Part shown: in pieces, positions 4,528 through 63,231 of the stretch
How the letters are laid out: each line of letters begins with the position of its first letter
Numbering within the stretch: the stretch's first letter is position 1
Assembly (NCBI RefSeq): GCF_000380335.1
Contig: NC_021149.1
Coordinates: 2,036,501-2,100,500 of the forward strand
Length of the DNA: 64,000 nucleotides
From: Azotobacter vinelandii CA
Lineage (GTDB): Bacteria; Pseudomonadota; Gammaproteobacteria; Pseudomonadales; Pseudomonadaceae
Direction: 5' to 3'
Notes under the pieces: generated by a model
The model's input: only the letters and a program-made list of their open reading frames with translations
What the model was told of the DNA's origin: nothing
Databases searched by the model: none
Position numbers and translations under genes: made by a program

Positions 4528-4830
4528 ATGGGGGCTCTGACGAAAGCTGAGATGGCAGAACGTCTCTACGAGGAGCTTGGCCTGAACAAGCGGGAAGCCA
4601 AGGAATTGGTGGAGCTGTTCTTCGAGGAAATCCGCCAGGCACTGGAGCACAACGAACAGGTCAAATTGTCCGGCTTTGGCAATTTCGACTTGCGCGACAA
4701 GCGCCAGCGGCCCGGTCGCAACCCCAAAACGGGGGAGGAAATCCCGATTACGGCACGGCGTGTCGTCACCTTTCGTCCAGGGCAGAAGCTGAAAGCCAGG
4801 GTTGAAGCCTATGCTGGAACCAAGCCATAA
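4528..4830 (+). CDS. ihfA: Integration host factor alpha subunit
   Basis: 100-residue HU/IHF-family DNA-bending protein. Together with IhfB it makes sharp bends used in replication, site-specific recombination and sigma-54 promoter activation. The conserved arm motif [11 protein letters not shown] and [10 protein letters not shown] are present. It follows pheT by 3 bases and overlaps the next gene by 20 bases, the classic pheST-himA-merR arrangement of pseudomonads. IHF may help the sigma-54 acx promoter and tRNA-targeted integration in this window, which is inference only. Confidence 0.97.
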
Positions 4831-5167
4831 CGACGAGTTACCTCCCATCCCAGGGAAGCGTTACTTCACCATTGGCGAGGTTAGCGAGCTTTGCGCGGTC
4901 AAGCCGCATGTATTGCGGTACTGGGAACAGGAATTCCCTCAGATCAATCCGGTCAAGCGCCGAGGCAATCGTCGCTATTATCAACGCCAGGATGTCTTGA
5001 TGATCCGGCATATCCGAGCCCTGCTGTACGAGCAGGGCTTCACCATCGGTGGGGCGCGCCTGCGTCTTTCCGGCGACGAGGCCAGGGAAGAGACGACTCA
5101 ATACCGGCAATTGATCCGTCAGACGATTGCCGAGTTGGAGGATGTCCTTCAGGTCTTGCGCAAGTAG
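4811..5167 (+). CDS. MerR-family transcriptional regulator
   Basis: 118 residues starting at the ATG at 4811 ([10 protein letters not shown]); the longer TTG start at 4802 lies deeper in ihfA and is less likely. The winged-helix MerR DNA-binding domain covers residues 17-85 ([21 protein letters not shown]). A short C-terminal helix ([12 protein letters not shown]) can form the dimer coiled coil. No Cys metal-binding pattern is visible, so the ligand is unknown. This gene sits after ihfA across Pseudomonas and its target is not known to me. Confidence 0.93.
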
Positions 5168-5222
5168 TCGTAGTCGCAAAAAAAACTTCCACTTTTCAGA
5201 AGCTTAATATATAGTTCGACCC

Positions 5223-5240
5223 GCTCCAGCGAGCTGGAGC
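5223..5240 (+). other. Short perfect hairpin before tRNA-Pro
   Basis: GCTCCAGC-GA-GCTGGAGC forms an 8-bp stem with a 2-base loop just after the merR-type gene and 8 bases before the tRNA. There is no T-run after it, so it may be a weak or processing-type terminator. Confidence 0.4.
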
Positions 5241-5247
5241 AGAAGAG

Positions 5248-5325
<78 letters not shown>

Positions 5326-5341
5326 TATACCTCAACGACTT

Positions 5342-5370
5342 AGGCCAGTTCGGTAACGACTGGCCTTTTT
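5342..5370 (+). terminator. Rho-independent terminator after tRNA-Pro
   Basis: AGGCCAGT (5342-5349) pairs with ACTGGCCT (5359-5366), loop of 9, followed by a T-run. It ends the tRNA transcript and is probably part of what the integrating element preserved or brought in. Confidence 0.85.
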
Positions 5371-5396
5371 CGTTTCAGGGACTTTTGCGGGACTTT

Positions 5397-6596
5397 TCAT
5401 CCTGCCTTTCTCCTCAGTATCGTCAGCGCCGGCCCTCGTGAGTCCGTCGCCGATATCTTGTTGGCCTCATCGATCAGTTTTCCCAGCTCCGCCGCTGAGT
5501 AGTGACTGGTGATGCTGCCGTTCTTGTGGCCTAGCAGGGCCCGCCTGTCTTCCTCGGTTACACCGGCTGCCCGGAGCCTTCTTCCGAAGGTGTGCTTCAG
5601 GTCGTGCACGCGGATCGAGGCGAATCCCTTCGGCGCCGGTCTCAGGAAGCGTTCCTGGTACTTCTTCGCCGCCCTGACCCGCGCCTTCTTCCAGGCGGAA
5701 TCGTTCATCCGATGAACCGGTGTCGCCTTGCCGTTCCTGTCGGGCATCCCGTACGGGAATACCCAGGTCGGATCCAGGCCACGCTGCCCCTCGATGACCG
5801 ACTTGGCCACAGTGTTCAGCACGACCAGCCGTTCCTCTCCGTTCTTCACGCCCGATCCCTTGTCCCTGCCTCCAAAATCCGAAGGAATCAGGAACACGCT
5901 GGTGTCGAGTTCCGGTACCGGTATCTCCCAGTCCCACCTCAGCTTGACCACTTCCTGCTCCCGAGAACCGCAGTTGACCTTGTAGAGCGCCATGCGGCGC
6001 AGGTGGTCCGGCAGTTCCGAGAACAGCAGCGACTGTTCTTCCCACGAAAGCGGGTAGGGCGTCCGCCTCGATCGCTTCTCGTCCAGCTTGCTGATCATCG
6101 GCACCGTGTCCAGCCAGGGCCGTTTCTCTTCATCGCGCCATTTCCGGGCGCACAGGTTGAGAACGCGGATGACCTTCTCCAGGGCGATGTTCACCGTCCT
6201 TGGGGTTACACCAGGCTTCACCTTGCCGGTCGATGTCCTGCCCGGCTTCAGCTTGTCCCTGATGTATGGAGCAAGCGACTCGTCATCGACGTGTGTGATC
6301 GGAAGGTCGCCGATGTAGGGATCCAGCTGCTCCAGGTAGGTGGCGGCCAAGCCGATCGACGGCATGTCCTTGTACTCCACCAGGTAGCGGGTAGCGGCTT
6401 CCCGCCAGCTCCTGATCCGGCGGATACCGTAGACCTTCTCCTCTCGCAGCTTCTCGAGCCGGTGTATCAGGTACTGTTCTGCTTCCTCCCGGTTGCCTGT
6501 TCCAGTGCTTTCTTGAAGTCGCTGACCTCTGACGACCTTGTCGACATGCCAGATTCCATTTCTCTCGTAGAGGCCAGTGATGGTTTTTCGCGCCAT
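5397..6596 (-). CDS. int: Tyrosine-type integrase
   Basis: 399-residue site-specific recombinase of the phage/island type, expected to integrate and excise the element at tRNA-Pro. The N-terminal arm- and core-binding regions cover about residues 1-170. The catalytic domain shows R212 (GSREQE), H331 (HDLKHT), H357 (LLGHK) and the nucleophile Y366 (SITSHYS). The second catalytic Arg position is Lys334 (HxxK instead of HxxR), which occurs in some integrases. AAGGAG precedes the ATG. It reads toward the tRNA, and the excisionase-like gene overlaps its 5' end. Confidence 0.93.
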   Translation of the reverse strand: MARKTITGLYERNGIWHVDKVVRGQRLQESTGTGNREEAEQYLIHRLEKLREEKVYGIRRIRSWREAATRYLVEYKDMPSIGLAATYLEQLDPYIGDLPITHVDDESLAPYIRDKLKPGRTSTGKVKPGVTPRTVNIALEKVIRVLNLCARKWRDEEKRPWLDTVPMISKLDEKRSRRTPYPLSWEEQSLLFSELPDHLRRMALYKVNCGSREQEVVKLRWDWEIPVPELDTSVFLIPSDFGGRDKGSGVKNGEERLVVLNTVAKSVIEGQRGLDPTWVFPYGMPDRNGKATPVHRMNDSAWKKARVRAAKKYQERFLRPAPKGFASIRVHDLKHTFGRRLRAAGVTEEDRRALLGHKNGSITSHYSAAELGKLIDEANKISATDSRGPALTILRRKAG

Positions 6597-47307: not shown

Positions 47308-47374
47308 TCCCGGCAGTCCTGTGCATGAAAAATAATTCCTTATGAATCAATAGATTGCCTGGTCTTTTCGAACA

Positions 47375-47390
47375 TGGCCCGGGCCTTGCT
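47375..47390 (+). promoter_or_regulatory. Sigma-54 promoter of the acx operon
   Basis: TGGCCCGGGCCTTGCT matches the consensus TGGCACG-N4-TTGCW at all key positions with exact GG-N10-GC spacing. Transcription should start near 47401, leaving an 88-base leader before acxA. A sigma-54 activator gene lies directly downstream of the operon. Confidence 0.85.
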
Positions 47391-47488
47391 CCGTTGCCTG
47401 GCGAGCCGCACTCGCAAGCCTTTCGGCAGGCGGATGCGCGGTCTCGACAGGTTGTACCGCGACAATTCGAACAACAACGGAGAACCCC

Positions 47489-49642
47489 ATGGACATGCAA
47501 CGCTCGAAAGTCCAGGTGATGGGCATCGATGCCGGCGGCACGATGACCGATACCTTCTTCGTCCGCGAGGACGGCAATTTCGTGGTCGGCAAGGCGCAGA
47601 GCAACCCGGCCGACGAATCCCTGGCCATTTACAATTCTTCCCTCGACGCGCTGTCCGCCTGGCAGCTCGGCGTCGACGACGTCTACCCGGAACTGGTGAC
47701 CTGCGTCTATTCCGGCACCGCCATGCTCAACCGGGTGGTACAGCGCAAGGGGCTGGACGTCGGCCTGATCGTCAACAAGGGCTTCGAACAGACCCACTCC
47801 ATGGGCCGCGCGATCCAGAGCTACCTGGGCTACGCCCTGGAGGAGCGGCTGCACCTCAACACCCATCGCTACGACGAGCCGCTGGTGCCCTATTCGCGGA
47901 CCCGCGGGGTCACCGAGCGCACCGACGTGCAGGGGCGGGTGGTGATTCCGCTGCGCGAGGAGGAGATGCGTCAGGCCACCCGCGAACTGGTCGAGGCCGG
48001 CGCCAAGGCCATCGTCATCGTGCTGTTGCAGTCGCACAAAAACCCCGCCAGCGAGAAGCGCGCCCGCGACGTCTGCCGCGAGGAGCTCAAGCGCCTCGGC
48101 CTGGATCTGCCGGTGTTCGCCTCGGTCGACTATTACCCGTCGCGCAAGGAGAGCCACCGCACCAACACCACCATTCTCGAAGCCTACGCCGCCGAGCCGT
48201 CGCGGCAGACCCTGCAGAAGGTCAGCGACCGCTTCAGGAAGCACGGCGCCAGGTTCGACCTGCGGGTGATGGCCACCCACGGCGGAACCATCTCCTGGAA
48301 GGCCAAGGAGCTGGCGCGGACCATTGTCTCCGGGCCGATCGGCGGGGTGATCGGCTCCAGGCTGCTCGGCGAGGCGCTGGGCTACGAGAACATCGCCTGC
48401 TCGGACATCGGCGGCACCTCCTTCGACATGGCGCTGATCACCAAGGGCAACTTCGCCATCGCCTCCGACCCGGACATGGCCCGCCTGGTGCTGTCCCTGC
48501 CGCTGGTGGCGATGGATTCGGTGGGCGCCGGCGCCGGCAGCTTCGTGCGCCTCGACCCCTACAGCGGCTCGCTCAAGCTGGGCCCGGACAGCGCCGGCTA
48601 CCGGGTCGGCACCTGCTGGCCGGAGAGCGGCCTGGACACTGTCTCGGTGAGCGACTGCCACGTGGTGCTCGGCTACCTCAACCCGGAAAACTTCCTCGGC
48701 GGCGCCATCAAGCTCGACGTGGAGCGCGCCCGCCAGCACATCAAGGCGCAGATCGCCGACCCGCTGGGGCTGTCGGTGGAGGAGGCCGCCGCCGGGGTGA
48801 TCGAACTGCTCGACCTGTCGCTGCACGAATACCTGCGCTCCAACATCAGCGCCAAGGGCTACAACCCCACCGATTTCGTCTGCTTTTCCTACGGCGGCGC
48901 CGGGCCGGTGCACACCTACGGCTACACCGAGGGCCTCGGCTTCAAGGACGTGGTGGTGCCGGCCTGGGCGGCGGGTTTCTCGGCCTTTGGCTGCGCCTGC
49001 GCCGACTTCGAGTACCGCTACGACAAGAGCGTCGACATCGCCCTGGCGCAGGACGGCGACGACACCCAGCGCACCGAAGCCTGCGCGGTGATCCAGGCGG
49101 CCTGGGACGAACTGGCCGCCAAGGTCATCGAGGAGTTCGTCAACAACGGCTTCAAGGCCGAGGACGTCACCCTGCTGCCCGGCTACCGGATGCAGTACAT
49201 GGGCCAGCTCAACGACCTGGAGATCACCTCGCCGATCGCCAAGGCATCCTCCGCCGCCGACTGGCAGAAGATCACCGACGCCTTCGAGGACACCTACGCG
49301 CGGGTCTACGCCAGCTCGGCGCGTTCCCCGGAACTGGGCTTCTCGGTCACCGGGGCGATCATGCGTGGCCTGGTCGTCACCCAGAAGCCGGTGCTGCCCG
49401 AGGACCCCGAGGCCGGTCCGCAACCGCAAGCGTCCGCGCATCTCGGCAAGCGGCCGTTCTACCGGCACAAGCGCTGGGTCGACGCCGACGTCTGGCAGAT
49501 GGAGGCCCTGCAGCCGGGCAACCACATCGTCGGGCCGGCGGTGATCGAGTCCGACTCCACCACCTTCGTGGTGCCCGACGGCTTCGAGACCTACCTGGAC
49601 AAGCACCGCCTGTTCCATCTCAAGGAATGCGCCCGCGGCTGA
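47489..49642 (+). CDS. acxA: Acetone carboxylase beta subunit
   Basis: 717 residues, normal for AcxA. Hydantoinase/oxoprolinase-type (ASKHA fold) subunit with the N-terminal phosphate motif MGIDAGGTMTDTFFV and the later SDIGGTSFDMALI. With AcxB and AcxC it carboxylates acetone to acetoacetate in an ATP-dependent reaction, allowing growth on acetone or isopropanol. It starts 99 bases after the sigma-54 promoter and is followed by acxB after a 39-base gap with a good ribosome site. Codon use is very GC-rich. Confidence 0.95.
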   Translation: MDMQRSKVQVMGIDAGGTMTDTFFVREDGNFVVGKAQSNPADESLAIYNSSLDALSAWQLGVDDVYPELVTCVYSGTAMLNRVVQRKGLDVGLIVNKGFEQTHSMGRAIQSYLGYALEERLHLNTHRYDEPLVPYSRTRGVTERTDVQGRVVIPLREEEMRQATRELVEAGAKAIVIVLLQSHKNPASEKRARDVCREELKRLGLDLPVFASVDYYPSRKESHRTNTTILEAYAAEPSRQTLQKVSDRFRKHGARFDLRVMATHGGTISWKAKELARTIVSGPIGGVIGSRLLGEALGYENIACSDIGGTSFDMALITKGNFAIASDPDMARLVLSLPLVAMDSVGAGAGSFVRLDPYSGSLKLGPDSAGYRVGTCWPESGLDTVSVSDCHVVLGYLNPENFLGGAIKLDVERARQHIKAQIADPLGLSVEEAAAGVIELLDLSLHEYLRSNISAKGYNPTDFVCFSYGGAGPVHTYGYTEGLGFKDVVVPAWAAGFSAFGCACADFEYRYDKSVDIALAQDGDDTQRTEACAVIQAAWDELAAKVIEEFVNNGFKAEDVTLLPGYRMQYMGQLNDLEITSPIAKASSAADWQKITDAFEDTYARVYASSARSPELGFSVTGAIMRGLVVTQKPVLPEDPEAGPQPQASAHLGKRPFYRHKRWVDADVWQMEALQPGNHIVGPAVIESDSTTFVVPDGFETYLDKHRLFHLKECARG

Positions 49643-49681
49643 AGCGGACCGGAACGACAATAAATAAAAGAGGCTTCCACC

Positions 49682-52000
49682 ATGAATATGCTGGCCAAGA
49701 ACGCCCCCGGCTCGCTGCTGGGCAACGGCAAGACCCTGCAGGCCTTCCGCAGCGAAGTGACCCAACGCACCAAGGAAACCGGCTTCTACAACGGGCTGAG
49801 CAGCCTGCCGTTCCGCGAGAGCGATCCGATCGGCTACGAGAAACTGTTCTCCAAGATCCGCGGCGGCCTGGTGCATGCCCGCGAGACGGCCAAGAAGATC
49901 GCCGCCAGCCCCATCGTCGAGCAGGAGGGCGAACTCTGCTTCACCCTCTACAACGCGGTGGGCGACTGCATCCTCACCTCCACCGGGATCATCATCCACG
50001 TCGGCACCATGGGCGCGGCGATCAAGTACATGATCGAGAACGACTGGGAGAGCAACCCCGGCATCGCCCCCGGCGACATGTTCACCAACAACGACTGCTC
50101 GATCGGCAACGTGCACCCCTGCGACATCGCCACCATCGTGCCGGTCTTCGCCCACGGCAAGCTGATCGGCTGGGTCGGCGGCGTCACCCACGTGATCGAC
50201 ACCGGCGCGGTGACTCCCGGCTCCATGTCCACCGGCCAGGTGCAGCGCTTCGGCGACGGCTACCAGGTCACCTGCCGCAAGACCGGGGTCAACGACCAGC
50301 CGCTGCGTGACTGGCTGCACGAGTCGCAACGCTCGGTGCGCACGCCCAAGTACTGGATTCTCGACGAACGCACCCGCATCGCCGGCTGCCACATGATCCG
50401 CGACATGGTCGAGGAGATCATCGCCGCCGAGGGCCTGGAGTCCTACGAGCGCTTCGCCTTCGAGGTGATCGAGGAGGGCCGCCGCGGGCTGCAGTCGCGG
50501 ATCAAGGCGATGACCCTGCCGGGCACTTACCGCAAGGTGGCCTTCGTCGACGTGCCGTTCAAGCACGAGGACGTGCAGACCTCCTCGGCCTTCGCCAAGG
50601 TCGATACCATCATGCACTCGCCGGTGGAGATCACCATCCGCCCGGACGCCAGCTGGCGGCTGGACTTCGAGGGCGCCAGCCGCTGGGGCTGGCACACCTT
50701 CAACGCCCACCACGTGGCCTTCACCAGCGGCATCTGGGTGATGATGACCCAGACCCTGGTGCCGACCCAGCGGATCAACGACGGCGCCTGCTTCGGCACC
50801 GAGTTCCACCTGCCCAAGGGCACCTGGTGCAACCCGGACGACCGCCGCACCGGCCACGCCTACGCCTGGCACTTCCTGGTTTCCGGCTGGAGCGCGCTGT
50901 GGCGCGGCCTCGGCCAGGCCTACTTCAGCCGCGGCTACCTGGAGGAGGTCAACTCGGGCAACGCCAACACCTCCAACTGGCTGCAGGGCGGCGGCATCAA
51001 CCAGGACGGCGAGGTCCACGCGGTCAACAGCTTCGAGGCCTCGTCCTGCGGCACCGGCGCCATGGCGATCCGCGACGGCCTCAACCACGCCGCGGCGATC
51101 TGGAACCCGGAAGGCGACATGGGCGACATCGAGATCTGGGAGATGGCCGAGCCGCTGCTGTACCTGGGGCGCAACGTCAAGTGCAACTCCGGCGGCTACG
51201 GCAAGTACCGCGGCGGCTGCGGCTTCGAGACCCTGCGCATGGTCTGGAACGCCGAGGACTGGACCATGTTCTTCATGGGCAACGGCTACATGAACTCCGA
51301 CTGGGGCCTGATGGGCGGCTATCCGGCCGCCACTGGCTACCGCTTCGAGGCGCACGACACCGGCCTCGCGGAGCGTATCGAGCAGGGCCTGTCGCTGCCG
51401 CTCGGCGGCGACCTCGATCCCACCGAGCCGGCCTACGAGCAGCACATCTCCGCCGCCGCCAGGGTCAAGCGCGACAAGCAGTGCATGACCACCGAAGACT
51501 GCTACGAGAACCACGACCTCTACCTCAACTACCTGCGCGGTGGGCCGGGCTTCGGCGATCCGCTGGAGCGCGAGATCTCCGCCATCGCCGACGACCTGAA
51601 CCAGGGCTTCGTCCTGCCGGCCTACGCCGAGAAGGTCTACGGCGCGGTGATCGCCCAGGACGCCAAGGGGTACTGGGCGGTGGATGCGACGGCCACCGAG
51701 ACGCGCCGCCTGCAGATCCGCGCCGAACGCCTGCAGCGCTCGCAGCCGACCCGCGAATGGATGCGCGAGGAGCGCGAGCGGATCGTCACCAAGCACGCCT
51801 CGGCGCCGGTGCAGCAGATGTACGCCAGCAGCTTCGCTCTCTCCGAGAAGTTCCTCGCCCGCTTCAAGGCGTTCTGGGAACTGCCCGCCGACTGGACGCT
51901 GAACGAGGACGAACTGGGCGTGCCGGTCTACGGCGCCAAGCACCGCATGGACCTGTCCCTGCTGCCCGATGTGCACACCGTGGTTCAAGTGGAAGAATGA
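49682..52000 (+). CDS. acxB: Acetone carboxylase alpha subunit
   Basis: 772 residues, hydantoinase B/oxoprolinase-type subunit that carries the carboxylation site region (Mn is reported in the family). Recognisable stretches: GDMFTNNDCSIGNVHPCDIA, GWVGGVTHVIDTGAVTPGSM and GSNPG-like ENDWESNPGIAPGDM. It works as part of the alpha2-beta2-gamma2 enzyme. The ORF ends 11 bases before acxC. No frameshift or missing segment is seen. Confidence 0.95.
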   Translation: MNMLAKNAPGSLLGNGKTLQAFRSEVTQRTKETGFYNGLSSLPFRESDPIGYEKLFSKIRGGLVHARETAKKIAASPIVEQEGELCFTLYNAVGDCILTSTGIIIHVGTMGAAIKYMIENDWESNPGIAPGDMFTNNDCSIGNVHPCDIATIVPVFAHGKLIGWVGGVTHVIDTGAVTPGSMSTGQVQRFGDGYQVTCRKTGVNDQPLRDWLHESQRSVRTPKYWILDERTRIAGCHMIRDMVEEIIAAEGLESYERFAFEVIEEGRRGLQSRIKAMTLPGTYRKVAFVDVPFKHEDVQTSSAFAKVDTIMHSPVEITIRPDASWRLDFEGASRWGWHTFNAHHVAFTSGIWVMMTQTLVPTQRINDGACFGTEFHLPKGTWCNPDDRRTGHAYAWHFLVSGWSALWRGLGQAYFSRGYLEEVNSGNANTSNWLQGGGINQDGEVHAVNSFEASSCGTGAMAIRDGLNHAAAIWNPEGDMGDIEIWEMAEPLLYLGRNVKCNSGGYGKYRGGCGFETLRMVWNAEDWTMFFMGNGYMNSDWGLMGGYPAATGYRFEAHDTGLAERIEQGLSLPLGGDLDPTEPAYEQHISAAARVKRDKQCMTTEDCYENHDLYLNYLRGGPGFGDPLEREISAIADDLNQGFVLPAYAEKVYGAVIAQDAKGYWAVDATATETRRLQIRAERLQRSQPTREWMREERERIVTKHASAPVQQMYASSFALSEKFLARFKAFWELPADWTLNEDELGVPVYGAKHRMDLSLLPDVHTVVQVEE

Positions 52001-52011
52001 GGAGCGCGAGC

Positions 52012-52518
52012 ATGACTACCTATACCAAGGAACAAGTGAAGAACCTGGTGGACGGCCGCCTGGACTGGGACACCACCACCCGCATGCTGACCATGCCCAA
52101 GGATCACGAGCGCTTCCGTCTCTACCTGGAGGTGCTGCAGGAGCGGGTCTCCTGGCCGGACCGCATCGTCCTGCCGCTCGGCCCGGCGCTCTACATCGTG
52201 CAGTCGGCGACCAGCAAGCGCTGGGTGACCAAGTGCCGCTGCGGCCACGAGTTCTGCGACTACCGGGAGAATTGGAAGCTCTTCGCCAACATCCACGTGC
52301 GCGACACCCCGGAAAGCATGCGCGAGGTCTACCCGACGCTGCTCGCCCCGGACACCCGGTGGCAGGTCTACCGCGAGTACTACTGCCCGCACTGCGCCAC
52401 CCAGCTCGACGTCGAGGCGCCGACCCCCTGGTATCCGGTGATCCACGACTTCGAGCCGGACATCGACACCTTCTACCGCGACTGGCTGGAGATGCCGCTG
52501 CCCGAGCGTGTCGATTGA
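52012..52518 (+). CDS. acxC: Acetone carboxylase gamma subunit
   Basis: 168 residues from the ATG at 52012. Small subunit with two Cys pairs, KCRCGHEFCDYREN (near residue 75) and YYCPHCATQLDVE (near residue 125), likely holding a zinc. The N terminus TYTKEQVKNLVDGRLDWDT is typical of the family. It completes the acxABC operon and is followed by strong hairpins that end the transcript. Confidence 0.94.
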   Translation: MTTYTKEQVKNLVDGRLDWDTTTRMLTMPKDHERFRLYLEVLQERVSWPDRIVLPLGPALYIVQSATSKRWVTKCRCGHEFCDYRENWKLFANIHVRDTPESMREVYPTLLAPDTRWQVYREYYCPHCATQLDVEAPTPWYPVIHDFEPDIDTFYRDWLEMPLPERVD

Positions 52519-52534
52519 TCGCGTAGACCGCCGT

Positions 52535-52585
52535 CTCCCCGGCATCCGCCGGGGAGCCTTCCGCGAGGCCCCGGTCCGGGGCCTT
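52535..52585 (+). terminator. Tandem hairpins ending the acx operon
   Basis: CTCCCCGGC-ATCC-GCCGGGGAG (52535-52556), then AGGCCCC-(5)-GGGGCCT (52566-52584). Both are very stable, with only short T-runs after them. Confidence 0.75.
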
Positions 52586-52801
52586 CGTCCAGCCACCGGC
52601 CTTCATCCGCCGGTAGTCGCCGTCTGTCCGCATATCCCGGATTCCCCGGGCGATTGCCGGATCGGGCGGCTGGATTCCCGTCTAGAATGCCTGCAGTTTC
52701 TGTGGTATTGCATTGTCCCCATGCCCGCTGCGCCAGAGATGCCGTGGGCGTCCTGCCCGCAGGGCCGAGCCGAGAACAATAACAATCAAGGGTGATGGCT
52801 G

Positions 52802-54796
<1,995 letters not shown>

Positions 54797-54953
54797 GCGC
54801 GGCAGGGGCGGGGGCCGCCGAACCGTGCGCTCCTTCACCTTCCCGACGTCATGCCCGGCGAGCGGCTTTCCGGGCGCCGTCGGCGGGGTATGCCACCGGC
54901 AGTTCGCCCCGTCCGCTCCAGCCGCAGCACCGTCGTCGAGACAATTCAACGCC

Positions 54954-55835
54954 ATGTCGATCTCCACATCTTTCGATTCCGCCCTGGGATATGCGGCGCT
55001 CACGGTCGCCGGCCAGGTGCGCAAGTGCAACGAGGACGCCCTGCTGTGCTGTCCGCAGTTGTGTCTGTGGGCGGTCGCCGATGGCATGGGCGGCCACGGT
55101 CGCGGCGAGCTGGCCAGCGCCCTGGCGCTGGAAACCCTGCACCGGCTGGTCGCCTGCGGTCAGGACCTGCGCAGCGCCGTCCAGGGCGCCGATGCCGCCG
55201 TTCTCGCCGCCGCCGAAACCAGGGTGGGCGGATACGGCATGGGCGCCAGCCTGGTCGCGGTGCGCTTCGCCGGCGCGGATTTCCAGCTCGCCTGGGCCGG
55301 CGACAGCCGCGCCTACCGGATCGGCGGCGACTCCATCCGCCAACTGACCCGCGACCATACTTGGGTGCAGACGATGGTCGACGCCGGCCGATTGACCCAG
55401 GAGGAAGCCAGCCGCCATCCCCTGCGCAACCTGGTGACCCGCTGCCTCGGCCTGAACCACGACATGCTCGCGGTGGAACTGGTGCAGGGCCGCCTCGACC
55501 AGGGCGAACGGCTGTTGCTGTGCAGCGACGGTCTGACTCGCGAACTGAGCGACGCACGGATCCAGCATCTGTGCGCCCACACCCTCAGCCTCGACACGCT
55601 GGTCGGCGCCCTGGTCGGAGCCGCCGAGCGCATGGGCGGCAGCGACAACATTTCCTGCATCGCGCTGGGACTCGCCGCACCGCCGGCACGGACCGAGGAG
55701 CGGCCACGCGGCTTTCTGCGCAGATTGCTGAAATCCGCCGGGAAAATGAGCGGTGCCCGATTGCGGAGAAAAATCGACGCCCGGAGTGCTCCGGGCGCTC
55801 TCGCGCGCATGGCTGCCTACCGCCCAGTGGCATGA
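54954..55835 (+). CDS. PP2C-type serine/threonine phosphatase
   Basis: 293 residues from the ATG at 54954. PPM-family metal motifs are all present: EDALLC near the start, VADGMGGHGRGE, LAWAGDSRAYRIG, LLLCSDGLTREL and GGSDNISCIAL. A basic tail of about 45 residues follows the catalytic domain. It removes phosphate from Ser/Thr of unknown partners. No kinase gene or type VI secretion gene is nearby. It is 146 bases upstream of the encapsulin operon, separated by AT-rich DNA, so a link to that operon is uncertain. Confidence 0.9.
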   Translation: MSISTSFDSALGYAALTVAGQVRKCNEDALLCCPQLCLWAVADGMGGHGRGELASALALETLHRLVACGQDLRSAVQGADAAVLAAAETRVGGYGMGASLVAVRFAGADFQLAWAGDSRAYRIGGDSIRQLTRDHTWVQTMVDAGRLTQEEASRHPLRNLVTRCLGLNHDMLAVELVQGRLDQGERLLLCSDGLTRELSDARIQHLCAHTLSLDTLVGALVGAAERMGGSDNISCIALGLAAPPARTEERPRGFLRRLLKSAGKMSGARLRRKIDARSAPGALARMAAYRPVA

Positions 55836-55837
55836 TC

Positions 55838-55925
55838 GACTGGAGTTTTATATTCTTAAAAGTTTTATAAATAAAATAACAAGTTATTTTTTTGGAATAA
55901 GTGAGCGATATAGAGTAGCCAGCAA
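55838..55925 (+). promoter_or_regulatory. AT-rich control region of the encapsulin operon
   Basis: The most AT-rich patch in this GC-rich half of the window. It contains a perfect 8-bp inverted repeat AAAATAAC-AA-GTTATTTT (55873-55890) followed by a T-run, which could end the PP2C transcript. Further on, GGAATAAG (reverse CTTATTCC) resembles a CysB-type half site, and TATAGA at 55909-55914 is a poor -10. The weak promoter would fit activator control by sulfur status, which is inference. Confidence 0.45.
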
Positions 55926-55981
55926 CGTGGTGCGGCGGATGGGCTGCCGGGCCTCGACCAGTCAACCGGAGGAGTCACAGA

Positions 55982-56506
55982 ATGCCAGCCGCTACCCCAG
56001 TCCGCCATGAAGCCGCCGAGGACGTCCGGCGTCCCGTCGATCTGTCCGAGGTACTCGCCGCCAGTCCGGCGGAGTTGCTCGCCAGGGCGCGTGCCCGAGG
56101 TGTCGACGGCGGTCTCGCCTATGCCGGCAGTCTCTACCCGCCGGAGGCCTGGGCGCTGCTGCAGGCCGGTGCGGCGATCCTGGTGGATGTGCGCAGCGCC
56201 GAAGAGCTGAAGTTCGTCGGGCGTGTGCCGGACACCCTGCACGTGGCCTGGCAGAGCGGCCCGACGCTGATCAAGAACCCGCGCTTTCTCATCGAGCTGG
56301 CCGGCAAGGCCGGGCGCGACAAGGTGCTGGTGCTGCTCTGCCGCAGCGGCAAGCGTTCCGCGGCGGCCGCGAGCGCCGCCGCGGCCGCCGGTTTTCCCCA
56401 GGTATTCAACGTGCTGGAGGGTTTCGAGGGCGATCTCGATGCCCGTCAGCAACGCGGCGAAAGCGGCGGCTGGCGACACTGGGGGCTGCCCTGGGTCCAG
56501 GATTGA
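55982..56506 (+). CDS. Rhodanese-like sulfurtransferase of the encapsulin operon
   Basis: 174 residues, with GGAGGAGTCACAGA before the ATG. Single rhodanese domain at about residues 50-165. The catalytic loop LLCRSGKRSAAAA has the persulfide-forming Cys and basic residues. VDVRSAEELKFVGRVPDTLHV is the conserved upstream part. It is expected to carry sulfane sulfur between donors such as cysteine desulfurase persulfide and acceptors. First gene of a four-gene run with epsC, shell and desulfurase. No targeting extension like that of the desulfurase is seen, so it probably acts outside the shell. Confidence 0.88.
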   Translation: MPAATPVRHEAAEDVRRPVDLSEVLAASPAELLARARARGVDGGLAYAGSLYPPEAWALLQAGAAILVDVRSAEELKFVGRVPDTLHVAWQSGPTLIKNPRFLIELAGKAGRDKVLVLLCRSGKRSAAAASAAAAAGFPQVFNVLEGFEGDLDARQQRGESGGWRHWGLPWVQD

Positions 56507-56593
56507 GTTGTATCCTTCCAGACATTTCCGGTACTTCTTTTCCCGTCCATCCCCGTTCAGGACCGGCCGTTTCCGCGGCCGGCAGGTTCTCTC

Positions 56594-57577
56594 ATGTCCA
56601 ACAAACCCAAGGCCGTCTTCGACGGCGTCTCGCATACGCCGGAGGTACCCGCGCCCCGGCCGGTGAACTGGCAACTGGAGCAGATCGTCGATGAACTGCG
56701 TGCCGCTCGCGCCGATTGGCGCAAGAACTGCGGCCGGACGCGCGAGCTGGGCAGCCGCGAATTGCCCTCGCGGCAGACCGTGGCGGAGATTCTCGCCGCG
56801 CTGAGCGGCGCGCTCTTTCCGATGCGCCTCGGGCCCAGCGATCTGCGCGAAGAGAGCGAGGATTTCTATGTCGGGCACACCCTCGACAGCGCACTGAACG
56901 CGCTGCTCGGCCAGGTACGCCTGGAACTGCACTATGTCGCCCGCCAGTGCGGGCAGCGCGAGCCGGATCTGGAGACGCGCGCGGTGCAGATCGTCCGCGA
57001 ATTCGGCGCCGCCTTGCCGGAAATGCGCCGGCTGCTGGACAGCGACGTGATCGCCGCCTACCAGGGCGATCCGGCGGCGCGCAGCCTGGACGAGGTACTG
57101 ATCTGCTATCCGGGCGTCCAGGCGGTGATCCACCATCGCCTGGCCCATCTTCTGTACCGCTCCGGGGTGCCGCTGCTGGCGCGGATCGTCGCGGAGATCG
57201 CTCATTCCGCCACCGGCATCGACATCCATCCGGGAGCGCAGATCGGTCACAGCTTCTTCATCGACCACGGGAGCGGCGTGGTGATCGGCGAAACCGCGGT
57301 GATCGGCAACCGCGTACGCATCTATCAGGCGGTGACCCTGGGCGCCAAGCGCTTCACCGTCGACGAGTCCGGCCAGTTGCTCAAGGGCCAGGCCCGTCAT
57401 CCTATCGTCGAAGACGACGTGGTAATTTATGCCGGCGCCACCATTCTGGGCCGCATCACCATCGGCAAGGGTTCCATCATCGGTGGCAATGTCTGGCTGA
57501 CCCGTAGCGTGCCTCCGGGCAGCAACGTCACCCAGGCGACCTTGCAACATCAGCCAGGCAACGCGGGGCAGCCGTGA
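56594..57577 (+). CDS. epsC: Serine O-acetyltransferase EpsC
   Basis: 327 residues. The N-terminal helical domain (about 1-190) is followed by a left-handed beta-helix of hexapeptide repeats (IDIHPGAQIGHSFFIDHGSG, GVVIGETAVIGN, GATILGRITIGKGSIIGGN). The catalytic His lies in FIDHGSG. It makes O-acetylserine, the carbon skeleton for cysteine and the inducer source for CysB-type control. EpsC with a family 2A encapsulin and a cysteine desulfurase is a known gene set. The last 8 codons lie in the first unit of a four-copy tandem repeat. Confidence 0.92.
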   Translation: MSNKPKAVFDGVSHTPEVPAPRPVNWQLEQIVDELRAARADWRKNCGRTRELGSRELPSRQTVAEILAALSGALFPMRLGPSDLREESEDFYVGHTLDSALNALLGQVRLELHYVARQCGQREPDLETRAVQIVREFGAALPEMRRLLDSDVIAAYQGDPAARSLDEVLICYPGVQAVIHHRLAHLLYRSGVPLLARIVAEIAHSATGIDIHPGAQIGHSFFIDHGSGVVIGETAVIGNRVRIYQAVTLGAKRFTVDESGQLLKGQARHPIVEDDVVIYAGATILGRITIGKGSIIGGNVWLTRSVPPGSNVTQATLQHQPGNAGQP

Positions 57578-57795
57578 CGGCGAGCCTCCGGCCCTGCGCA
57601 TCAATGCGGTACCGGCCGGGCAACGCGGGGTCGTCGTAACGACGAACCTCCGGTCCTGCACACCGCGGTACCGGCCAGGCAACGCGAGGCAGCCGCGATG
57701 GCGAGCCTCCGGCCCTGTGCGTCATGCAATTCCAACCGGGCAACGCGGGGCAGTCGCGACGACGAGCCTTTCGGTCCTGTGCGTCTATTCCGAAT
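57554..57795 (+). repeat. Four-copy tandem repeat between epsC and the encapsulin gene
   Basis: Imperfect units start at 57554, 57616, 57675 and 57736 (spacing 62, 59 and 61). The common core is CCRGGCAACGCGRGG, then GYC-N5-GRC, then GAGCCTCCGG. In the GYC-N5-GRC part the middle pair changes together (GCC/GGC in copies 1 and 3, GTC/GAC in copies 2 and 4). This suits a small hairpin or a duplicated two-unit block. Copy 1 encodes the end of EpsC. The repeat ends about 20 bases before the shell gene. Confidence 0.8.
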
Positions 57796-57812
57796 CTTTA
57801 CTGGAGTGATTC

Positions 57813-58745
57813 ATGAGTGACCATCAGGATGTACGCCTGGCATTGGGCGACAGCGCCGCACGCCAGTTGGCGAACGCGACCAAGACCGTCCCGCAGCTTT
57901 CCACCATCAGCCCGCGCTGGCTGGTGCACCTGCTGCAGTGGACGCCGGTGGAGGCGGGCATCTTCCGTCTGAACAAGGTGAAGAACCCGCTGAACGTGCA
58001 GGTCGCCTGTTCGCAGCGCGACGAGGCGGTGCTGCCGCAGACCTTCGTCGACTACGAGGAGCAGCCGCGCGAGTACTTCCTCAACGCGGTGACCACCATC
58101 CTCGACGTGCACACCCGCGTCTCCGACCTCTACAGCAGCCCGCACGACCAGATCCGCGAGCAGTTGCGCCTGACCATCGAGACGATCAAGGAGCGCCAGG
58201 AAAACGAGCTGATCAACAACCCCGAATACGGCCTGCTGGCCAGCGTCGATCCGAGCCAGCGCATCTCCACCCTGGGCGGCGCGCCGACCCCGGACGACCT
58301 CGACGAGCTGATCGCCAGGGTCTGGAAGGAGCCGGCCTTCTTCCTCGCCCATCCGCTGGCCATCGCCGCCTTCGGCCGCGAGTGCACCCGCCGCGGCGTG
58401 CCGCCGCCCACCGTCAGCCTGTTCGGCGCGCAGTTCCTCACCTGGCGCGGCCTGCCGCTGGTGCCGTCGGACAAGATCCCGTTCGACGACAACGGCAAGA
58501 CCAAGATCCTCCTGCTGCGCGTCGGCGACAAGCGCCAGGGCGTGGTCGGCCTGTACCAGCCCGGCGTGGCCGGCGAGCAGAGCCCGGGGCTGTCGGTGCG
58601 CTTCATGGGCATCAATCGCAACGCCATCGCCTCCTACCTGATCTCGCTGTACTGCTCGCTGGCGGTGCTGACCGAAGATGCCCTGGCCGTGCTCGATGAC
58701 GTGGAGGTCGACAAGTACCATGACTACTCGGACACCTACAAGTAA
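57813..58745 (+). CDS. Family 2A encapsulin shell protein (SrpI-like)
   Basis: 310 residues, CTGGAGTG before the ATG. Matches the HK97-fold family 2A encapsulins, once annotated as SrpI or major membrane protein I. Typical segments: ISPRWLVHLLQWTPVEAGIF, NPEYGLLASVDPSQRISTLG, TVSLFGAQFLTWRGLPLVPS and the C-terminal DVEVDKYHDYSDTYK. No cyclic-nucleotide-binding insertion is present, which separates 2A from 2B. Subunits should assemble into a closed icosahedral shell around the desulfurase. The gene end overlaps the cargo gene start by 26 bases, so shell and cargo translation are coupled. Confidence 0.93.
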   Translation: MSDHQDVRLALGDSAARQLANATKTVPQLSTISPRWLVHLLQWTPVEAGIFRLNKVKNPLNVQVACSQRDEAVLPQTFVDYEEQPREYFLNAVTTILDVHTRVSDLYSSPHDQIREQLRLTIETIKERQENELINNPEYGLLASVDPSQRISTLGGAPTPDDLDELIARVWKEPAFFLAHPLAIAAFGRECTRRGVPPPTVSLFGAQFLTWRGLPLVPSDKIPFDDNGKTKILLLRVGDKRQGVVGLYQPGVAGEQSPGLSVRFMGINRNAIASYLISLYCSLAVLTEDALAVLDDVEVDKYHDYSDTYK

Positions 58746-60606
58746 TCCGCCGCAGCCGGCGGACGCCCGGGGGCCGGCCGGTCTGCCGGACGTGGCGGAT
58801 CTGGCGCGGCTGGCCAACGCCTTCTTCGCCAGCCTGCCGGGTAGCGCTCCGTCGGACGGCGTTCCGTCGGGCGGCGCGCCCTTCGGCAAGGGTCTGTCGG
58901 ACAGCGTTCTGCCGGGCGGCGTTTCGGCGCTGGCCGGCGTGTCGCCCGTCGAGCCGTTTCCGAGTGGGGCCGCCGCCTCGCTCGGGGCGGCCGAACGGCA
59001 CGCCGGGGAGACGCTTCCGGCGGGCATCGCCGACGGCCTGGAGCTCGGCTCGCCCGAGGCCTACGCCGCCGCGTTGCCGACGCTGTTCCCGGCTGCCGGC
59101 GGCCTCGCGCCGTTGGCCGGGGGCGCGCCGTCCACGCCGTACTACTTCCTCGGCGAGGGCAGCGCCTACAGCGGCGAGCCGGAGCGCTTCGCGGACCTTC
59201 CCGTCGAGCCGGACAGCCGCGCGGTGCCGGGCGGGGACGCGCTGGGCGAGGTCCTCCGCTCGATCCTCGCCGAGCCGTCCGCGCCGGCGGCGCCGGCGGG
59301 TCCGGGGGCCGGACAGTTCTATTTCCTCGAACGGAGCGGTCCGGGCCTGGAGCAGGCGCCCGATCCCGTCGTCCAGCCGCAGGTCCGCAGCGGTTTCGAC
59401 GTGCAGGCGGTGCGCCGGGACTTCCCGATTCTCGCCGAACGGGTCAACGGCAAGCCGCTGGTGTGGTTCGACAACGCCGCCACCACGCAGAAGCCCAAGG
59501 CGGTGATCGATCGCCTGGCGTACTTCTACGAGCACGAGAACTCCAACATCCACCGCGCCGCCCACGAGCTGGCGGCGCGGGCGACGGACGCCTACGAGGG
59601 CGCGCGCAGCAAGGCGGCGCGCTTTCTCGGCGCGAAGTCGACGGACGAGATCGTCTTCGTGCGCGGGGCGACCGAGGGCATCAACCTGCTGGCCAACACC
59701 TTCGGCCGCCGGTTCATCGGCGAGGGGGACGAGATCATCGTCTCCCACCTGGAGCACCACGCCAACATCGTGCCCTGGCAGTTGTTGGCCAACGCGGTGG
59801 GCGCCAGGCTCAAGGTGATCCCGGTGGACGACTCCGGGCAGATCATCCTGGAGGAGTACGCCAGGCTGCTCGGTCCGCGCACCCGGCTGGTGAGCATCAC
59901 CCAGGTGTCCAACGCCCTCGGCACGGTCACCCCGGTGGCGGAGGTGATCGCCCTGGCGCATGCCGCCGGTGCGCGGGTACTGGTGGACGGCGCGCAGTCG
60001 GTGTCGCACCTGAAGGTCGACGTGCGGGCGCTGGACGCGGACTTCTTCGTGTTCTCCGGGCACAAGGTCTTCGGGCCGACCGGCATCGGTGTGGTCTACG
60101 GCAAGCAGGAACTGCTCGACGAGCTGCCGCCCTGGCAGGGCGGCGGCAACATGATCGCCGATGTGACCTTCGAGAAGACCCAGTACCAGGGTGCGCCGGC
60201 GCGCTTCGAAGCCGGTACCGGCAACATCGCCGATGCGGTGGGGCTCGGTGCGGCGCTGGACTATGTCGAGCGCATCGGCCTGGAAGCCATCGCCCGCTAC
60301 GAGCACGAACTGCTGGAGTACGCCACCCGGGGCCTCGCGACGATTCCCGGCCTGCGCCTGATCGGTACCGCGGCGAACAAGGCCAGCGTGCTGTCCTTCG
60401 TGCTGCAGGGCTACCGCACCGAGGAGATCGGCGCCGCCCTCAATCGCGAGGGTGTCGCCGTGCGTTCCGGCCACCACTGCGCGCAGCCGATCCTGCGCCG
60501 TTTCGGGGTGGAAACCACGGTGCGGCCGTCGTTGGCGTTCTACAACACCTTCGACGAGATCGACCTGCTGGTGAGCACCGTGCACCGTCTGGCGACCCGG
60601 CGCTGA
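58720..60606 (+). CDS. Encapsulated cysteine desulfurase (SufS-type) with N-terminal cargo domain
   Basis: 628 residues from the ATG at 58720, inside the encapsulin gene end; GGAGG lies 12 bases ahead. Residues 226-628 are a SufS-like PLP enzyme with Schiff-base Lys in FSGHKVFGPTG and active-site Cys in VRSGHHCAQPILRRFG. It converts cysteine to alanine and enzyme persulfide. Residues 1-225 are Ala/Gly/Pro-rich and disordered, with short conserved-looking islands: DVADLARLANAFF (24-36), GSPEAYAAALPTLFPAAGG (110-128), TPYYFLGEGSAY (139-150) and GQFYFLERSG (198-207). Such an extension directs the enzyme into the shell in this family. Confidence 0.93.
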   Translation: MTTRTPTSNPPQPADARGPAGLPDVADLARLANAFFASLPGSAPSDGVPSGGAPFGKGLSDSVLPGGVSALAGVSPVEPFPSGAAASLGAAERHAGETLPAGIADGLELGSPEAYAAALPTLFPAAGGLAPLAGGAPSTPYYFLGEGSAYSGEPERFADLPVEPDSRAVPGGDALGEVLRSILAEPSAPAAPAGPGAGQFYFLERSGPGLEQAPDPVVQPQVRSGFDVQAVRRDFPILAERVNGKPLVWFDNAATTQKPKAVIDRLAYFYEHENSNIHRAAHELAARATDAYEGARSKAARFLGAKSTDEIVFVRGATEGINLLANTFGRRFIGEGDEIIVSHLEHHANIVPWQLLANAVGARLKVIPVDDSGQIILEEYARLLGPRTRLVSITQVSNALGTVTPVAEVIALAHAAGARVLVDGAQSVSHLKVDVRALDADFFVFSGHKVFGPTGIGVVYGKQELLDELPPWQGGGNMIADVTFEKTQYQGAPARFEAGTGNIADAVGLGAALDYVERIGLEAIARYEHELLEYATRGLATIPGLRLIGTAANKASVLSFVLQGYRTEEIGAALNREGVAVRSGHHCAQPILRRFGVETTVRPSLAFYNTFDEIDLLVSTVHRLATRR

Positions 60607-60613
60607 CGTTCAT

Positions 60614-60645
60614 CTCCCCCGGCTGTCCGGCCGGGGAGCTTTTTC
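60614..60645 (+). terminator. Terminator of the encapsulin operon
   Basis: CTCCCC(C)GG pairs with CCGGGGAG around a small loop and is followed by CTTTTTC. It closes the operon and may also serve copA from the other side. Confidence 0.8.
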
Positions 60646-60741
60646 TCCCCCGTGCCCGGCCTTGCCGCGAGCGGCGCGGCCGGGCAGATTCATCCGCGAC
60701 GGATGGCGGTGGAAGCCAAGGCATCGCGGACGCGTTCGCTC

Positions 60742-63231
60742 CTAGCCGAGCGCCGGCGGCTGGAAGCGCTTCAGACGCAGCGCGTTGCCGAGCACGAACA
60801 CGCTGGACAGGGCCATGGCGCCGGCGGCGAAGACCGGCGAGAGCAGCATGCCGTTGACCGGGTAGAGCGCGCCGGCGGCCAGCGGGATCAGCGCGGTGTT
60901 GTAGGCGAAGGCCCAGAACAGGTTCTGGCGGATGTTGCCGAGGGTCGTCCGGGACAGGGCGATGGCCGTGGGTACGCCGCGCAGGTCGCCGGACATCAGC
61001 ACCACGTCGGCCGCCTCGATGGCGATGTCGGTGCCGTTGCCGATGGCCAGGCCGACATCCGCCGCGGCCAGCGCCGGAGCGTCGTTGATGCCGTCGCCGA
61101 CATAGGCGATTTGTCCGTGCCTGGCCTTGAGGCGCTTGAGCGCCTCGACCTTACCGTCCGGCAATACTTCGGCCACCACTTCGTCGATGCCCAGTCGCCG
61201 GGCGATGGCTTCGGCCGCGCGGCGGTTGTCGCCGCTGATCATCGCCACCTGGATACCCTGCGCATGCAGGGCGCGGATCGCCGCCGGCGTGGTTTCCTTG
61301 AGCGGGTCGGCGACCGCCAGCATGGCCGCCGGACGACCGTCGATGGCGGCGTAGAGCGGCGTCTTGGCCTCGTCGCCGAGGCGGCGGGCCTCCTGGGCGA
61401 AGCCGCTCACATCGAGGCCTTGCCGGGCCATGAAGCGGTCGGCGCCGATCTCCACCCGCACGCCGTCCACCATGGCGCGCACGCCATAGCCGGTGACCGC
61501 CTCGAAGTCTTCCAGCCGGCCGAGGGCGAGGCCTTCGGCCTCGGCCGCCGCGACGATGGCGCGGGCGATGGGATGTTCGGAGCGCACCTCGACGGCGGCG
61601 ATCCGGCCGAGCACGGCGCCGCGCTCGAAGCCTTCGGCGAGGATCAGGTCGGTCAGCTCGGGCCTGCCGCGGGTCAGGGTGCCGGTCTTGTCCAGCGCCA
61701 CCACCCGGGCGTCCTTGAGCGACTGCAGGGCTTCGCCCTTGCGGAACAGCACGCCCAGCTCGGCGGCGCGGCCGGTGCCGACCATGATCGAGGTGGGGGT
61801 GGCCAGGCCCATGGCGCAGGGGCAGGCGATGATCAGCACGGCCACCGCGTTGACCAGGGCGAAGGTCAGCGCTGGCGCCGGGCCGAAGAACATCCAGGCG
61901 AGGAAGGTGAGCAGGGCGACGAGCATCACCACCGGGACGAACCACAGGGTGACGCGGTCGACCAGCGCCTGGATCGGCAGCTTGGCGCCCTGGGCCTGCT
62001 CGACCATGCGGATGATCTGCGCCAGCACGGTGTCGCCGCCGATACGGGTGACGCGCAGGGTCAGCGCGCCGTTCTGGTTGATGGTGCCGCCGACCAGGCC
62101 GGCGCCGGGCGTCTTCTCCACCGGCACCGGCTCGCCGGTGATCATCGACTCGTCGACGAAGCTCGTGCCCTCGCTCACCTCGCCGTCCACCGGGATGCGC
62201 TCGCCGGGGCGTACTTCGAGCAGGTCGCCGTTGCGCACTTCCTCGATGGCCACTTCCTCGACCCGGCCGTCACGGCGCACGCGCGCGGTCCTGGCCTGCA
62301 GGCCGATCAGGCGCCTGATCGCTTCCGAGGTGCGGCCCTTGGCGCGGGCCTCGAGGAAACGGCCGAGCAGGATCAGGGTGACGATCACCGCCGCCGCTTC
62401 GTAGTAGACGTGCACGGTGCCGGCCGGCAACAGGCCGGGGGCGAAGGTGGCGACCAGGGAAAACAGCCAGGCGGCGCTGGCGCCGACCGCGACCAGCGAG
62501 TTCATGTCCGGCGCCCCGCGCAGCAAGGCCGGGATGCCCTTGCGGAAGAAACGCAGGCCGGGGCCGAACAGCACCAGCGTGCACAGAACGGACTGCAGGA
62601 GCCAGTTGGCCCGCTGGCCGAGACTGGCGAGGATCAGGTGGTGCAGGGCCGGAATCAGGTGCGCGCCCATCTCCAGCAGGAACACCGGCAGGCTGAGGGT
62701 GGCGGCCAGGGTCAGGTCACGCTTGAGCGCGGCCAGTTCGGCGCCGCGCCGCGCCTCTTCGGCGTCGACCGCTTCGTTGCCGGCGCTCATCGCCTTGGCC
62801 GCGTAGCCGGCGCGCTCGATGGCGGCGATCAGCGTGGCGGCCGGCATGCCGCTCAGAACGCGCACCCGGGCCCGTTCGCTGGCCAGGTTGACGCTGGCAT
62901 CCGTCACGCCCGGCAGCTTCTTCAGCGCCCGCTCGACGCGGCCGACGCAGGAGGCGCAGGTCATGCCGCTCACGCTCAGCTCGATGCTGTCCTCGGTGAC
63001 CTGGTAGCCGGCCTTGCGCACCGCGGCGATGGCGGCGGCGACGTCGACCGCGCCGGCGAAGGCGATCTCCGCCCGCTCGCTGGCCAGGTTGACGCTGACG
63101 CCCGTCACGCCGGGTACCTTGCTCAGGGCGCGCTCGACCCGTCCGACGCAGGAGGCGCAGCTCATGCCCTCGATGGCGAGGGTCAGGTGCGCCCCCTGGT
63201 CCGGGCGGGTGACGCTGATCGATGTATCCAT
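60742..63231 (-). CDS. copA: Copper-exporting P1B-type ATPase
   Basis: 829 residues from the ATG at 63231, with GGAGG ahead; the much longer open frame upstream is not real. Two N-terminal heavy-metal domains (GMSCASC near residue 22 and GMTCASC near residue 89), eight membrane helices, the actuator loop [11 protein letters not shown], the membrane motif IACPCAMG, phosphorylation site [11 protein letters not shown] and [11 protein letters not shown]. It pumps Cu(I) out of the cytoplasm. Control is by the MerR-type promoter directly upstream; no cueR gene is in the window. Confidence 0.95.

Follow-up and report, generated by a model that had tools for sequence, protein, structure and literature searches.

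A predicted family 2A cysteine desulfurase encapsulin operon of Azotobacter vinelandii CA and its second shell and cargo copy

Among the described family 2A encapsulins, the SrpI shell of Synechococcus (solved structure 6x8m) is a T=1 shell with the HK97 fold that loads the cysteine desulfurase CyD through an extension of this cargo protein and is induced by sulfate starvation; the turnover of CyD is almost sevenfold higher when the enzyme is encapsulated (PMC8049743). A survey counted 1281 family 2A desulfurase operons, in which serine O-acetyltransferase and rhodanese are the most enriched accessories (PMC8346489), and sulfur storage has been assigned to desulfurase encapsulins (PMC12407261). 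The stretch of DNA considered here, the window, comprises 64,000 nucleotides of Azotobacter vinelandii CA (C1:2036501-2100500, C1 being the only contig of the 5.37-Mb genome). On the basis of the list of open reading frames (ORFs) and of profile searches, four co-directional genes at 55982-60606 of the window encode a rhodanese, a serine O-acetyltransferase, an encapsulin shell protein, and CyD, and almost certainly constitute a genuine family 2A cysteine desulfurase encapsulin operon.

Gene identities in the operon

All the elements of the operon lie on the forward (+) strand. The shell gene (57813..58745) encodes a protein of 310 amino acids (aa) that reaches 543.8 bits against NF041162 (encap_f2a, cut-off 380) and is matched nearly end to end by solved shells (8t6r, E 3.5e-173; 6x8m SrpI, 1.2e-153; 9ksl, 7.6e-147), the closest by sequence being 8t6r. 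The latter is presumably the family 2A encapsulin of Acinetobacter baumannii. The family 2B model is also passed (435.1 bits, cut-off 400), with a best stretch covering only profile positions 211-449, and we take this match for the shared shell part; the cyclic-nucleotide-binding Pfam domain, which marks family 2B, was not found in the 310 aa. The shell also matches PF19307, which found no match in any of 14 control genomes, including one of an unstated strain of Synechococcus elongatus, a species in which the shell gene is plasmid-borne (PMC8049743).

The cargo gene (58720..60606) encodes a CyD of 628 aa that scores 895.4 bits against NF041166 (f2_encap_cargo1, cut-off 800) and is composed of a cargo extension (residues 1-225) and a SufS-type catalytic domain (residues 226-624), the latter matching solved SufS-type desulfurases, with 8kg1 as the best (8.3e-193). 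The motifs GHHCA and SGHK are both present, and we take them to hold the catalytic Cys and the pyridoxal phosphate Lys, respectively. The extension contains LARLANAFF, STPYYFLGE, and an additional FYFL motif, and the motifs in print for the extension of Synechococcus CyD are LARLANEFFS and AASPYYFLDG (PMC8049743). In a survey of 80 CyD frames from 84 loci, from which four shortened frames were dropped and in which the second copy of this genome is included, the first motif occurs with at most two substitutions in 67 frames, [YF]YFL in 69, and both in 58. CyD, read from its ATG at 58720, and the shell gene share 26 nt, and the same overlap is found in 70 of the 82 loci judged (83 were offered, one being too short); its conservation therefore suggests that shell and CyD may be translationally coupled. 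The start at 58720 is a predicted one, because an in-frame start exists farther upstream in many relatives.

The first gene of the operon (55982..56506, 174 aa) encodes a rhodanese-domain sulfurtransferase with 49.9 bits against PF00581 (cut-off 22.2), for which no NCBIfam equivalog was reached in the profile search; the CRSGKR loop read in its translation is presumably of the active-site type. The second gene, epsC (56594..57577, 327 aa), encodes a serine O-acetyltransferase of the EpsC/CysE type, which passes the corresponding curated model (NF041874 EpsC, 166.2 bits, cut-off 150). The EpsC label is unspecific, as the nif and isc acetyltransferases of the same genome pass NF041874 with higher scores (218.3 and 243.9).

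The scan of relatives in named genomes listed 80 loci out of at least 585 confirmed relatives; 66 of them had enough flank for a judgement of gene order, and 14 were too short. Among these listed matches, in 59 of the 66 judgeable loci the rhodanese and acetyltransferase genes precede the shell gene within 3.5 kb and CyD follows it, all on one strand. The operon is an ordinary family 2A set already in print (PMC8049743, PMC8346489). A preliminary description of this DNA had named the four genes, assigned them to family 2A, and considered the set as known in other bacteria; the naming is confirmed by NF041162, NF041166, NF041874, and PF00581, all over cut-off, and by the solved homologues, and the occurrence elsewhere by the gene orders and by print. 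The outer limits that it had given, 55838..60645, agree with the promoter region described below and with a terminator-like hairpin followed by a T run at 60617..60636, a signal that is weak alone (5 such sites versus 3.0 expected in shuffles).

Promoter region and second copy

Upstream of the rhodanese gene, the alignment with seven relatives contains a conserved AT-rich block (55848..55918), a putative promoter, with the words TATTC at 55851, AAATAAAA, TTATTTTTT, and ATAGAGTAG at 55910. The block is recognisable by eye in 10 of the 11 stretches printed, more weakly in Azomonas agilis and Stutzerimonas kirkiae, and is absent, by eye, from the Ralstonia stretch among these 11. A sigma70-like site with 9 of 12 matches lies at 55827-55854 (0.1 expected). 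The native promoter has ATATTCTT in common with one of the two sulfate-binding-protein gene promoters of the same genome, as well as 12 of 13 bases around TTTTTTGGAATAA, with BLAST E values (7.1 and 1.8) that are not significant; when the window is divided into 2060 overlapping stretches of 155 bp, 18 have at least two TATTC/GAATA words, and three of these 18 lie over the native promoter. A strict promoter pattern has a single forward match in the genome, this operon, and the reversed-pattern control has one forward and two reverse matches; as a definition of a regulon the pattern was rejected, since the number of matches is no better than in the control. An ORF of 61 aa (L117:1078-1263), which we take to resemble OscA, follows an AT-rich stretch and precedes a sulfate-binding-protein gene.

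A tandem array (57553..57779) with a unit of about 60 bp starts in the 3' end of epsC; within this genome it occurs at the two encapsulin copies described here and nowhere else, and it was not found in the two relatives searched (G003 and L013). A test of the array for structured RNA found no signal (z -0.39), and no Rfam family reached the gathering threshold in 54800-61000. A gene for a PP2C-type phosphatase (54945-55835) abuts the operon upstream; in genome G003 (L098:1653-5088), genes for a protein kinase (PF00069) and an FHA-domain protein (PF00498) lie between phosphatase and rhodanese, and both are missing at the corresponding site of the window. Farther upstream (47374-54796), the genes include one of the hydantoinase B/oxoprolinase type (49682-52000) and one for a sigma54-dependent regulator (52802-54796), which are consistent with the acetone locus proposed in the preliminary description.

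The segment 57475..60645 (+) is repeated once elsewhere in the genome, being 99.3% identical over 3.17 kb to L003:7615-10786, where L003 is the locus extracted around the second copy near 1.653-1.657 Mb. In particular, a second shell gene (1653953-1654882) encodes a protein identical to the window shell and is followed by a second CyD; because the left end of the repeat lies in the 3' part of epsC, the rhodanese gene, most of epsC, and the native promoter are missing in copy 2. Just to the left of copy 2, a sigma70-like site (L003:7519-7547, ATGACA-17 bp-TATAAT) matches at 11 of 12 positions, and another one with 10 of 12 matches is on the other strand, giving two sites in 3.9 kb versus 0.3 expected in shuffles. 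The contrast between two promoters is a reading and not a proof, because the native operon also has its sigma70-like site (9 of 12). Copy 2 probably provides additional shells that are controlled differently, the helper genes and the native promoter being absent from it. No Pfam match was obtained just to the right of copy 2; a fragment near it (L003:6478-7122) has RTX calcium-binding repeats and matches a serralysin C-terminal region. A second shell and CyD copy was not found in the literature searched, most subscription journals lying outside that search.

Proposed function and rival readings

In the proposed mechanism, the acetyltransferase would make O-acetylserine from serine, and a cysteine synthase encoded elsewhere would convert it to cysteine; the N-terminal extension would draw CyD into the icosahedral shell, assembly and loading being taken from relatives; the encapsulated CyD would convert cysteine to alanine and sulfur, the latter presumably being held inside the shell as a store; and the rhodanese would handle the sulfur leaving it. 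Elemental-sulfur storage by a family 2A encapsulin, presumably that of 8t6r, has reportedly been described by Benisch et al. in 2024 (Sci. Adv. eadk9345). By analogy with relatives, sulfur storage is likely the function, and the operon is probably expressed more strongly under sulfur shortage. The term "self-contained", applied to the compartment in the preliminary description, is too strong: no O-acetylserine sulfhydrylase is among the four genes, and in copy 2 the rhodanese gene and almost the whole acetyltransferase gene are missing. It had also been held there that a shell forming without the desulfurase would speak against the assignment, an argument that is invalid because the Synechococcus family 2A shell assembles in E. 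coli without cargo (PMC8049743).

Several points weigh against this reading. The operon acetyltransferase scores 171.8 bits against the cysE model TIGR01172, below the cut-off of 210.65, and, with the patterns used here, the first extension motif is absent from 13 of the 80 CyD frames and [YF]YFL from 11. Among the matches listed, the acetyltransferase gene is on the opposite strand in five Acinetobacter loci, and in two Rubrivivax loci the upstream 3.5 kb contain no helper gene at all, so that the helpers are not strictly required. The HK97 fold and the T=1 architecture of the window shell are predicted from the sequence match to 6x8m. Control of the operon by CysB is a guess drawn from short shared words, with BLAST E values that are not significant; a CysB consensus site was not obtained from the literature searched. 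Finally, in Synechococcus the loss of shell or CyD did not impair the growth of the mutants (PMC8049743).

Three genes of the genome are strong serine acetyltransferase matches (C1 156818, 4092446, and 2093541), and each is separated by a single gene from a cysteine desulfurase gene about 0.7-1.3 kb away: NifS, one gene, and CysE in the nif pair; CysE, IscR, and IscS in the isc pair; acetyltransferase, shell, and CyD in the encapsulin operon. NifU, NifS, IscU, IscS, IscR, and both CysE proteins pass the NCBIfam cut-offs, and the other desulfurase-like genes of the genome have no acetyltransferase match nearby. This adjacency fits an acetyltransferase feeding cysteine to the nearby desulfurase. 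As for nitrogen fixation, the 298 Pseudomonadaceae genomes searched include 12 with the shell, 22 with nifH over cut-off, and 8 with both; nifH is thus present in 8 of 12 shell-bearing and 14 of 286 shell-free genomes (Fisher p 9.5e-8, a value that ignores descent). When the genus of the window and the genus Azomonas are removed, the figures are 2 of 6 versus 13 of 284 (p 0.03, again ignoring descent). Class-wide, 369 genomes include 6 with the shell (E up to 1e-100), 31 with nifH, and 3 with both, and without the genome of the window nifH is found in 2 of 5 shell-bearing versus 28 of 363 other genomes (p 0.055, descent likewise ignored). The nifH cut-off is also passed by 3 of the 14 control genomes, so that passing is not proof of nitrogen fixation. 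Three nifH-type matches in the genome of the window exceed the curated cut-off; a TGA is reported inside the match C1:4961279-4962100, as in one match of genome G013. A link between shell and nitrogen fixation is possible, the association of shell and nifH being mostly through one clade; the nitrogen-fixation role suggested in the preliminary description is thus weakly supported by the family-wide counts, and the prevalence of one clade and the class-wide p value detract from it.

These pairs raise the alternative that the compartment is not a store and delivers sulfur for iron-sulfur (Fe-S) cluster and nitrogenase assembly, as a third acetyltransferase/desulfurase module beside nif and isc. 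The position of all three strong acetyltransferase loci one gene from a cysteine desulfurase, the co-occurrence of shell and nifH in Pseudomonadaceae, and the serine acetyltransferase nifP in the nif cluster of Azotobacter chroococcum (PMC4284476) speak for sulfur delivery. The alternative appears improbable all the same, given that the four operon genes include no iscU/nifU-type scaffold, that the nifH association is mostly that of one clade, and that the genome has two weaker TIGR01172 matches (31.4 and 24.5 bits). Many shell-bearing relatives, for example Acinetobacter, are moreover not known as diazotrophs.

A different doubt concerns copy 2, which might be a recent, non-functional passenger of transposition without meaning. 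Transposase genes lie near it (L003:2040-3068 and 4602-5963), weak helix-turn-helix matches below cut-off are found just to its left, and the three other genomes of the genus have one shell gene each, two of them being draft assemblies of about 100 and 180 contigs, where copies so alike may have been merged. The copies show 23 differences, which together with the different flanks on both sides argue against an assembly duplicate: 6 are in the 103-bp epsC remnant, 1 is intergenic, 1 is in the shell gene (933 bp), and 15 are in CyD (1861 bp). Polarised by the three other genomes of the genus, 12 can be assigned (10 arose in copy 2, the other 2 in copy 1), and 11 are unclear. The changes of the epsC remnant include one frameshifting indel, whereas the shell and CyD frames of copy 2 stay open; here 15 codons differ, 14 of them silently, with a single amino-acid change at CyD residue 63 (Val/Ala), so that copy 2 does not look decayed. 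Random transitions would alter the amino acid in 64% of cases, and the chance of at most one change without selection is 5e-6 if independence is assumed. Gene conversion from copy 1 could yield the same pattern of silent changes; thus, selection or gene conversion seems to have preserved the coding parts of copy 2, while the epsC remnant decays, and the passenger reading is rather doubtful. The most elaborate reading, which we regard as speculative and unlikely to hold in full, is an insertion sequence (IS)-linked duplication that gave a second, selected shell and cargo pair under a constitutive sigma70-type promoter, the first pair being under a conserved sulfur-type promoter; one compartment would then follow two programmes, of which one would involve neither acetyltransferase nor rhodanese, and this compartment would be tied to nif and isc through the shared supply of cysteine.

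Comparison with described systems

The features that are new here are the second, near-identical shell and CyD copy, the promoter block shared by relatives of the Azotobacter type and of Pseudomonas, and the three pairs of acetyltransferase and desulfurase genes; the literature searched on encapsulin and Azotobacter, judged by title or the start of the abstract, contains no family 2A shell in Azotobacter. Azotobacter vinelandii is genetically tractable and has a high demand for iron-sulfur clusters. With two shell and cargo copies, apparently different promoters, and three modules, it would be a good host in which to ask whether such compartments store, detoxify, or deliver sulfur.

The SrpI/CyD system of Synechococcus elongatus PCC 7942 (6x8m) resembles the window in the family of the shell, in the adjoining shell and CyD genes, and in the long N-terminal extension of CyD with both conserved motifs; it differs in that its shell gene is on a plasmid, whereas the set of the window is chromosomal, has rhodanese and acetyltransferase genes upstream, and is accompanied by a second shell and CyD copy (PMC8049743). 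Several of the Acinetobacter family 2A loci, L066 for example, have the gene order of the window, and five differ by the reversed acetyltransferase gene. The Pseudomonas, Stutzerimonas, and Azomonas operons (L010-L015) share with the window the gene order, the 26-nt overlap, shells that are 94-96% identical, and the promoter block, which all six have, in weaker form in L012 and L014; whole-genome searches, where made, gave one shell gene per genome in these relatives, in contrast to the two of A. vinelandii.

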